Assembly: GCA_029256085.1 (NCBI GenBank)
Contig: JAQSYP010000001.1
Coordinates: 706,497-770,496 of the forward strand
From: Caryophanales bacterium
Lineage (GTDB): Bacteria; Bacillota; Bacilli; CAJFEE01
Reading direction: 5' to 3'
DNA: 64,000 bases
Made by a program: the position numbers and the translations under genes. Below, in pieces: positions 5,474 to 60,270 of this stretch; position 1 is the stretch's first letter; each line of letters starts with the position of its first letter. The notes under the pieces are model-generated. The model saw nothing but the letters and a program-made list of their open reading frames with translations, was not told the origin of the DNA and searched no databases.

Positions 5474-5716
5474 ATGAGGCTAAGTGAATTAAGTGGGAAA
5501 GAAATTGTTGATCTTAAAAGAGCAGAACGTTTAGGTATACTTGGACATACAGATCTAGAAATAGATGAACAAAACGGATTTGTCCTAGCATTAATTATTC
5601 CAACTAGTAAACGGATACCATTCTTCTCTCAAAGTAAAGAAATTAAAGTACCGTGGAGTTCTATAAAAAAGATTGGTTCAGATATGTTAATTATTGATGT
5701 CGATGATTTTGAATAA
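5474..5716 (+). CDS. ymxH: PRC-barrel protein of the YlmC/YmxH family
   Basis: 80 residues (MRLSELSGKEIVDL, then GILGHTDLEID, then IKVPWSSIKKIGSDMLIID) forming a small PRC-barrel, the beta-barrel fold also found in RimM and photosynthetic reaction centres. YlmC/YmxH proteins are conserved in sporulating firmicutes and several are expressed in sporulation, but no biochemical role is established. AGGGTGATT precedes the ATG. It lies between the mlpA terminator and its own terminator, just before the dipicolinate operon, as in B. subtilis. Confidence 0.88.
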   Translation: MRLSELSGKEIVDLKRAERLGILGHTDLEIDEQNGFVLALIIPTSKRIPFFSQSKEIKVPWSSIKKIGSDMLIIDVDDFE

Positions 5717-5720
5717 TTTA

Positions 5721-5748
5721 AGGTGCCTAGATAGGCGCCTTTTTTTTA
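5721..5748 (+). terminator. Terminator after ymxH
   Basis: AGGTGCC (5721-5727) pairs with GGCGCCT (5734-5740) and is followed by eight T. Confidence 0.85.
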
Positions 5749-5753
5749 TATAA

Positions 5754-5900
5754 GGAAAGTATAAAATTCTAATAATTACACTCGCAGAAACTACTCGCTT
5801 TCCGCGAGCACGGCCTCAGGCTTTTTTTGCTAGTTTCACTAGCAAAAATGGATTTTCAGCTCGTTCTGTTCCCTCTGGGGAAATGTATACATTTCCAACA
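5754..5900. repeat. Mosaic intergenic repeat upstream of dpaA
   Basis: Much of the roughly 350-base gap 5717-6070 is a structured repeat-like unit. Its first bases (GGAAAGTATAAA at 5754) match the left end of the 110-bp repeat found four times elsewhere in the window. The rest differs: a CTCGC/GCGAG hairpin (near 5784-5800), GCACGGCCTCAGGC, a GCTAGT/ACTAGC hairpin (5829-5843), and CAGCTCGTTCTGTTCCC. From memory, CGCTTTCCGCGGGCACGGCC and CAGCTCGTGCTG-type stretches recur between genes in many Bacillaceae, so this looks like a decayed member of such a family. It ends in the perfect palindrome GGAAATGTATACATTTCC (5879-5896). Between 5900 and 6000 I see nothing recognisable. Confidence 0.5.
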
Positions 5901-6002
5901 GCTTTACAATATTGTGATAATCTAACTGTTTTTTGTAAAGCCAAGTTTATTTTATAAGTAAACTAGATTATTAAAGGATAGTCCAAAAACAATAAAGACA
6001 AA

Positions 6003-10851: not shown

Positions 10852-10900
10852 GACAAAAGATATTCTGGATTTTCATTTTCAGAATAACTTTTGTCTTTTA
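10852..10900 (+). terminator. Terminator after dapA
   Basis: GACAAAAG-A-TATTCTG pairs with CAGAATA-A-CTTTTGTC (interruptions on both arms), followed by TTTTATTT. It closes the dipicolinate/lysine operon and sits directly ahead of a copy of the 110-bp repeat. Confidence 0.8.
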
Positions 10901-10903
10901 TTT

Positions 10904-11013
10904 GCTAGTAGGAAAGTATAAACTTTGACTAGTTCATACTTTCCTAACGCATAAGTGCAACTACGGCTCTGCCGTCGCCTTAAAGGCTCGGCAATCGCCG
11001 AGTTTTCTTTATA
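10904..11013 (+). repeat. Dispersed ~110-bp intergenic repeat, copy 1
   Basis: Begins right behind the dapA terminator with GCTAGTA, then a hairpin: GGAAAGTATAAACT pairs with AGTTCATACTTTCC, one mismatch. Next come CTAACGCATAAGTGCAACTA and a GC-rich part ending in CTCGGC-AATC-GCCGAG followed by TTTTCTTTATA, itself shaped like a terminator. Near-identical copies lie at 41792 and 60156 and a diverged one at 42656, all in the same orientation. It carries no ORF. Confidence 0.85.
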
Positions 11014-41336: not shown

Positions 41337-41753
41337 ATGAACCTATATTCAAAAGATGACATTTTAAATCAGGCAAAAGAATTAGCTGCAATGATTGCAA
41401 AAACAAATGAAGTAGAATTCTTTAAAAAAGCAGAAGCAAAGATTAATGAAAATGAAAATATACAACAAATTATTAAGCAAGTTAAGAATTTACAAAAGCA
41501 ATCAGTAAACCTTCAACACCTCGATAAAGAAAAAGCGCAGGCTGATACAGATAGTAAGATTGAACAATTATTAGCTGAACTCGATGAATTTCCAATTGTA
41601 AAGGAATTCCAACAGTCTCAAGTAGAAGTGAATGACATTTTGCAGCTAGTATCAGTAACAATTGCAAATGGAGTTACCGATGAAATAATTAAATCTACAG
41701 GTGGGGATGTTTTAAAAGGTCAAACTGGGTCTAAAGTTAAAAATAAAAAATGA
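41337..41753 (+). CDS. ricA: RicA (YmcA), RNase Y-complex subunit
   Basis: 138-residue helical protein (YlbF/YmcA family) starting three bases after miaB. RicA forms a complex with YlbF (RicF) and YaaT (RicT) that promotes RNase Y-dependent mRNA processing and, in B. subtilis, competence, sporulation and biofilm formation. Seen here: KDDILNQAKELAAMIAKT at the N-terminus, a central helical QVKNLQKQSVNLQHLDKEKAQ, and a GGDVLKGQTGS tail. GAGGTG in the end of miaB is its ribosome site. Closed by a terminator. Confidence 0.93.
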   Translation: MNLYSKDDILNQAKELAAMIAKTNEVEFFKKAEAKINENENIQQIIKQVKNLQKQSVNLQHLDKEKAQADTDSKIEQLLAELDEFPIVKEFQQSQVEVNDILQLVSVTIANGVTDEIIKSTGGDVLKGQTGSKVKNKK

Positions 41754-41791: not shown

Positions 41792-41901
41792 GCTAATTGG
41801 AAAGTATAAACTTTTGACTAGTTCATACTTTCCTAACGCATAAGTGCAACTACGACTCTGCCGTCGCCTTAAAGCTCGGCAATCGCCTAGTTTCTTTATA
41901 A
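41792..41901 (+). repeat. Dispersed ~110-bp intergenic repeat, copy 2
   Basis: Starts with GCTAATT behind the U-tract, then the hairpin GGAAAGTATAAACT/AGTTCATACTTTCC, the conserved CTAACGCATAAGTGCAACTA, and the GC-rich tail ending in TTTCTTTATA. Differs from copy 1 by a few single changes, including GCCTAG for GCCGAG in the last stem. The rest of the 320-base gap to cotE (41902-42073) holds the cotE leader; I could not fix a sigma-E or sigma-K promoter in it. Confidence 0.85.
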
Positions 41902-42655: not shown

Positions 42656-42765
42656 AGCTAATAATAAAGTAAAAATTTTACGTATTTCATACTTTATTAA
42701 CGACTAAATTAAAGTACGGCTTTGCAATCGCCATTAGGCTCGGCATCGCCAAGTTTCTTTATATT
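42656..42765 (+). repeat. Dispersed intergenic repeat, diverged copy 3
   Basis: Same layout as the other copies but about one third of positions changed. The first hairpin is kept: ATAAAGTA pairs with TACTTTAT, where the two outer G-C pairs of the other copies have become A-T and T-A. The second half still reads GTACGGCTTTGCAATCGCC, then GGCTCGGCATCGCC and TTTCTTTATA. It lies between two convergent genes, cotE and the DUF1540-like gene. Confidence 0.75.
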
Positions 42766-60115: not shown

Positions 60116-60153
60116 AAAAGCAAATTCATTTTTACAGTGAGTTTGCTTTTTTC
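60116..60153 (+). terminator. Terminator after tkt
   Basis: AAAAGCAAATTC pairs with GAGTTTGCTTTT over 12 base pairs, followed by TTTTTCTT; a repeat copy starts three bases later. Confidence 0.85.
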
Positions 60154-60155
60154 TT

Positions 60156-60270
60156 AGCTCATACATCGAAAAGTATAAACTTTTGAATAGTTCATACTTT
60201 GCTAACGCATAAGTGCAACTACGGCTCTGCCTTCGCCTTAAAGGCTCGGCAATCGCCGAGTTTTCTTTAA
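60156..60270 (+). repeat. Dispersed ~110-bp intergenic repeat, copy 4
   Basis: Begins with GCTCATACATC behind the tkt U-tract. First hairpin GAAAAGTATAAAC/GTTCATACTTTGC lost one pair relative to copies 1 and 2. CTAACGCATAAGTGCAACTA and CTCGGC-AATC-GCCGAG-TTTTCTTTA are identical to copy 1. It occupies much of the 305-base gap between tkt and sirA; the rest holds the sirA promoter region. Confidence 0.85.

Follow-up and report, generated by a model that had tools for sequence, protein, structure and literature searches.

What places a short non-coding repeat behind one terminator after another, always in the same orientation? This question is raised by a 64,000-nt stretch of the genome of a Caryophanales bacterium (GCA_029256085.1, contig JAQSYP010000001.1, positions 706,497–770,496 of the forward strand), hereafter called the window. 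A preliminary description had named four copies of a structured repeat of ~110 bp in the window, each behind an intrinsic terminator and co-oriented with transcription. All four were found again (Table 1), the fourth starting at 60157 and not at 60156. Each copy begins directly after the T-tract of a terminator hairpin and lies on the strand of the upstream gene.

The upstream genes had been called dapA, ricA, cotE and tkt. The names dapA and tkt are supported by NCBIfam, and the gene upstream of copy 3 is probably cotE, judging from its homologues and from mutS downstream. The name ricA was not borne out, as NCBIfam gave only one weak match below the cut-off for this gene.

Table 1. Terminators, element copies and a related repeat in the 64,000-nt window (CM, covariance model).
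Positions	Strand	Feature	Details
5720..5747	+	Terminator behind ylmC/ymxH-type gene (5474-5716)	
5748..5954	+	Sister family member	Left end AGGAAAGTATAAAATTCTAATAATTACACTCG, right end GCCAAGTTTATTTTA
10852..10903	+	Terminator (hairpin and T-tract) of dapA, proposed insertion target	Hairpin -18.7 kcal/mol; dapA TIGR00674
10904..11011	+	Element copy 1, full length	CM 138 bits
41765..41791	+	Terminator of gene 41337-41753 (ricA in the preliminary description)	Hairpin -11.1 kcal/mol
41792..41898	+	Element copy 2	CM 117 bits
42619..42655	+	Terminator of cotE (name inferred)	Hairpin -20.9 kcal/mol
42656..42761	+	Element copy 3, diverged	CM 90 bits; about 76% identical
60119..60156	+	Terminator of tkt	Hairpin -14.7 kcal/mol; transketolase TIGR00232
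60157..60269	+	Element copy 4	CM 120 bits

Architecture and Structure of the Element

The element is non-coding, contains no ORF and measures about 90–135 bp (typically ~110 bp). Read 5' to 3', (A/G/T)GCTAATA comes first after the host terminator hairpin and its T-tract. The left hairpin (GGAAAGTATAAACTT..AGTTCATACTTTCC) is then joined by the linker TAACGCATAAGTGCAACTA to a small GGC..GCC hairpin, after which the right hairpin (GGCTCGGC-AATC-GCCGAG) leads into the terminal TTTTCTTTA. Copy 1 has this layout, with AACGCATAAGTGCAACTA between its left hairpin and its small hairpin, and the core words of the element are ATAAGTGCAACTA...AGTTTTCTTTA. Terminal inverted repeats are lacking: GCTAATAGG... 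at one end is not repeated in inverted form by ...TTTTCTTTA at the other. The right end, a conserved G+C-rich hairpin followed by TTTTCTTTA, resembles a terminator, which is consistent with the structural part of the earlier proposal that the element adds a second terminator. Nothing was found in support of an RNA processing unit, another option put forward in the preliminary description.

The stems covary. In an alignment of 78 distinct copies, which was fitted to the covariance model and is hence biased towards it, 95.9% of the pair cells hold standard pairs, and nine pairs are changed on both sides (23 cells; shuffles gave 2.7 and slid controls 3–13); all five covariation measures lie above those of all 500 shuffles and of each slid control. 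When the right hairpin was counted independently and without gaps in 108 distinct modules from other genomes, 84% was paired (slid controls 20–43%), with clear C-G/T-A and G-C/C-G swaps. In the diverged copy 3 of the window the left hairpin is largely preserved by paired changes.

The 5' module is variable: besides a short hairpin there is a longer form that contains TTCGACGTAG, and there is a third type as well. In some genomes (G018 and G154) the stretch from AAGTGCAACTA to AAGTTTTCTTTA is a single unrelated, nearly perfect hairpin; what is preserved is the pairing of the stem and the sequence of the words on either side. In some copies (e.g., L023 and L027) the loop of the left hairpin, CTTATGCGT, is the exact reverse complement of ACGCATAAG in the linker, and a pseudoknot or an alternative fold is possible in this subfamily. 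An RNA triplex of a purine arm with a U-rich tail can be drawn on paper; it showed no covariation and was dropped.

Target and Orientation Across the Source Genome

The source genome (2,626,368 bases; 2.63 Mb) was searched with a covariance model, as the preliminary description had suggested. This gave 84 sense copies with E ≤ 1.4e-5, along with some ten fragments. The right-end pattern alone occurs in 79 places, while a reversed control pattern has no match.

The flanking DNA was examined for nearly all of these copies. A hairpin of ≤ -10 kcal/mol that stops just short of the element's left boundary is present at 66 of the 72 best copies, compared with 6% of the T-rich tracts in the window (53 of 827) and 5% of random positions (copies vs. 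T-rich tracts: Fisher OR 161, p 2e-59). The foot of the hairpin lies 2–10 nt from the boundary, and the few copies without a clear hairpin still come after a T-rich stretch. The median distance from the stop codon to the element is 46 bp, and one copy is found behind the terminator of a tmRNA gene. Relative to the nearest upstream ORF of ≥100 aa, the element is co-oriented in 55 of 58 cases and opposite in 3. Placement is therefore non-random, as had been argued from the four copies in the window; a lack of enrichment behind terminators, or equal numbers in both orientations, which would have spoken against the early reading, is not what the genome as a whole displays. On contig C4, two of the three minority-strand copies follow genes of that strand, so that in these small numbers the orientation of the element goes with the terminator more than with the replication fork.

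Among 59 copies, 38 have the junction CTTTA|T. The base to the left of GCTA varies (A 39, G 13, T 7) and the CTTTA of the right end is constant, so that no target duplication is present; the flanks differ between copies.

Empty and Occupied Sites

Empty sites in relatives had been proposed as a further check. We compared the orthologous terminator ATCCAGCTGT..ACAGCTGGATTTTTT across Cytobacillus species, i.e., between species with 71–74% flank identity and not between sister strains. Cytobacillus depressus has the terminator without the element, in C. citreus a single copy adjoins it (..TTTA|CACGTTAAGAAAG), and arrays of 2 and 3 tandem units are found there in two genomes of C. gottheilii. A closer pair (89%) differs only in the number of tandem units, and recombination could be the source of this change. 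The site accordingly documents presence and absence of the element behind an ancestral terminator, rather than a witnessed insertion. Orthologues of cotE in related genomes likewise have terminators and lack the element.

Distribution and Targets in Other Genomes

The pattern AAGTGCAACTA-N(25-50)-AGTTTTCTTTA matches at least 115 stretches in public genomes. The matches listed include the genera Neobacillus, Cytobacillus, Natribacillus, Gracilibacillus, Virgibacillus, Pseudalkalibacillus, Ectobacillus, Caldibacillus, Aneurinibacillus and Shimazuella and, outside the Bacilli, Desulfosporosinus, Alkaliphilus and a Clostridiales bin. With Bacillaceae, Paenibacillaceae, Desulfosporosinus and others among its carriers, the family is widespread. 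When the class Bacilli was sampled evenly (399 genomes, 145 genera), exact matches were found in 18 genomes from 15 genera and control matches in none; this prevalence is a lower bound, since the pattern recovers just 35 of the copies in the source genome. One genome, G018, has 44 exact copies.

With left ends placed by means of an anchor on the left hairpin, T is found in 46–56 of 61 non-tandem copies from other genera at positions -7, -6, -5, -3 and -2 and in 41 of 61 at -4, and the base at -1 is A or G in 49 of 61. A hairpin of ≤ -10 kcal/mol precedes 59% of these non-tandem copies compared with 15% of T-tracts (p 1e-14), while about 40% follow a T-tract without a strong hairpin. The upstream gene points the same way in 40 cases and the other way in 16. 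Together these figures suggest that the hairpin may be a preference and not a need. Ten of 71 copies in other genera adjoin the right end of another copy (TTTTCTTTA|next copy).

Viral contigs gave two chance matches only and phage records none. Among plasmids, credible matches were limited to Radiobacillus, 'Arthrobacter citreus' NEB 577 and Sporomusa. The plasmid of the second of these (CP053689, locus L142) carries a full long-form copy that is 86.5% identical to the Bacillaceae query, and the strain is probably a mislabelled member of the Bacillaceae. Long-form tandem arrays with a 134-bp period are found in Ectobacillus funiculus (L206, L219 and L257), with five exact units in L206.

Sister and Neighbouring Modules

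A sister family member, overlooked in the preliminary description, lies at 5748-5954 of the window and follows the same rule of position and orientation directly behind a terminator (Table 1). The sister family opens with words that it shares with the element, AGGAAAGTATAAA, and its left end may also be given as AGGAAAGTATAAAATTCTAATAATTACACTCGCAGAAACTA. At least three further copies are present in the source genome. The sister adjoins the right end of the element in some places, and the element adjoins the right end of the sister in others. At locus L081 the order is host terminator, sister, element and a third module, all in the same orientation. The third module starts with CTGTGAAAATAAAAAATGTTGGG, shares about 82 bp between sites and was seen only behind the right end of the element (L010, L025, L027, L030, L081, L091 and L108).

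How the Element May Move

Occupied and empty orthologous sites, tandem and nested copies, a conserved T-tract target and covarying hairpins argue for an element that is mobile, non-autonomous and directed to terminators. Mobility, target and orientation are strongly supported, and we consider it likely that this is a non-autonomous structured mobile element that targets the 3' end of the terminator T-tract in a strand-specific manner and without target duplication. A mobile, terminator-targeting element in need of outside help had been one of the options in the preliminary description; copy number, target, orientation, empty sites, nested and tandem copies, patchy occurrence and the lack of an ORF all speak for it.

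The insertion site would consist of a hairpin, a T-rich tract and usually an A or G, after which the element is inserted. Because the right end of the element (hairpin and TTTTCTTTA) looks like the target, one machine may recognise hairpin and T-tract both as element end and as target, probably in single-stranded form. Such recognition would explain the fixed orientation, the short distance to the hairpin and tandem growth behind the element's own right end, and it seems to us the likeliest principle, one found in IS200/IS605 and group IIC introns, of neither of which the element need be a member. The element, itself protein-free, would be moved in trans by an outside factor, which the source genome may have lost. 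More tentatively, it could belong to a hitherto unrecognised, Bacillota-wide superfamily of protein-free, structured terminator-landing elements whose mobiliser is neither Y1/HUH, reverse transcriptase nor IS110, and whose own end mimics the target and so builds arrays and mixed chains.

A profile search of the source genome for Y1_Tnp, RVT_1 and the IS110 DEDD domain gave no matches, an absence compatible with an enzyme that has diverged or was recently lost. No recurrent ORF was found beside copies in other genera, and no long element with a gene between the two ends in the loci examined.

Structured ends, strand-specific insertion, a short target to the left, the lack of target duplication and the form of the tandem junctions are all shared with IS200/IS605 and their palindrome-associated derivatives. 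The element might thus be a palindrome-ended derivative of this type, moved single-stranded by a Y1 (HUH) transposase in trans to the 3' side of a T-rich target; pairing with the T-tract is conceivable for AAGAAA, the purine arm at the base of the left hairpin, and Y1 genes are present in 15 of the 20 element-bearing genomes searched. We nevertheless hold this to be unlikely. Y1 matches are missing from the source genome, for all its 84 copies, and from G018 with its 44 (as from four others of the 20), and element ends were found at none of 30 Y1 loci from element-bearing genomes. Nor is the constant CTTTA mirrored in the stretch that precedes the right hairpin on its 5' side: as judged by eye, the guide pairing TAAAG/CTTTA fits only some copies of the source genome, and the stretch varies freely in other genera. 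The palindrome that flanks RAYT-type Y1 genes (L269, L270 and L282) is a different one, GGGACGGTTCT..AGAACCGTCCC, and seems to be the REP of these genes themselves.

Insertions behind a terminator are the least harmful ones, so an ordinary small transposon with loose T-rich targeting could show the same placement if selection removed its insertions elsewhere, as has been proposed for the SPRITE repeats of pneumococcus (PMC3049150). This is quite improbable here: the reverse orientation behind terminators would be tolerated as well, yet it is not seen, and selection would not fix the junction at the end of the T-tract when only 6% of T-tracts have such hairpins.

More doubtful still is a SINE-like element that a reverse transcriptase would mobilise in trans through RNA, choosing its targets as group IIC introns do; these insert beside a DNA stem-loop and exploit lagging strands (PMC10190682). 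The lack of target duplication and the covarying structure would agree with it, but RVT_1 is absent from the source genome, Rfam gives no intron domains and a ribozyme would need far more than 110 bp. Finally, a second terminator or 3'-end stabiliser that is maintained by the host, spread by vertical descent and recombination and not itself mobile would fit the conserved, covarying right hairpin with its T-tract and the position of copies behind housekeeping genes, but is very unlikely given the occupied and empty orthologous sites, the tandem arrays, the truncated copies, the patchy spread (18 of 399 Bacilli genomes by exact pattern) and the insertions behind other repeats.

Relation to Known Systems

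Group IIC introns target terminators. Like these introns, the element described here sits behind a stem-loop (66 of 72 copies) in a fixed orientation and without target duplication; unlike them, with their ribozyme of several hundred nt and their reverse transcriptase, it measures ~110 bp and has no Rfam intron domain, and the source genome has no RVT_1. The two share their choice of target and are unrelated. A search of Rfam 15 (4227 families) gave no match above the gathering score, nor at permissive thresholds.

The nearest published kind is bcr1 of the Bacillus cereus group, a small, structured, non-coding repeat with up to 130 copies per genome, features of mobility and TTTAT at its site (PMC6542083). 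The element resembles bcr1 (and bcr2/bcr3) in being small, structured and non-coding, and its junction CTTTA|T resembles TTTAT. The comparison is by description: bcr1 is said to be restricted to the B. cereus group, with no mention of terminator targeting in the publications consulted. Blastn of four forms of the element family against B. cereus-group plasmids gave no match; a relation to bcr1 is possible. If bcr1 were homologous, the family would be known in one corner, with terminator targeting and breadth as the new part.

SPRITE of Streptococcus pneumoniae is likewise a small repeat that resembles an intrinsic terminator and is enriched near gene 3' ends (PMC3049150). It differs in having one 18-bp stem with a long T-rich tract and in being found mainly in pneumococcus and its relatives, and a position behind pre-existing terminators is not reported for it. 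Classical MITEs (e.g., RUP), which are moved in trans, are also short, non-coding and of high copy number; unlike them, the element has no terminal inverted repeats and no target duplication. It is set apart from IS110/IS1111 by the absence of the DEDD transposase from the source genome. In the open literature we found no description of the core sequence or of a terminator-targeting repeat.

Terminators are safe harbours: they lie behind nearly all operons, and an interruption downstream of them does no harm. A non-coding element that located them by structure would have solved, a second time and independently, the task solved by group IIC introns, and would be a natural model for safe-site insertion. 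It also raises the question of which machine moves it.

Effects on Neighbouring Genes

Inserted copies would spare the host gene and its terminator while supplying a further terminator-like hairpin, and in many Bacillota the element would give rise to double terminators and altered 3' ends. Where two genes converge, the site of insertion often coincides with the stop codon of the opposing gene. In the source genome this opposing gene ends inside the last four bases of the element in 12 of 22 cases, because CTTTA read backwards gives TAA, and a few opposing genes extend slightly into it. Five such convergent stop-codon cases were also seen in other genera. At C4:14719 (L083), C10:43175 (L078), C6:44098 and other sites the element provides the convergent gene with its stop codon or with a short C-terminal tail.
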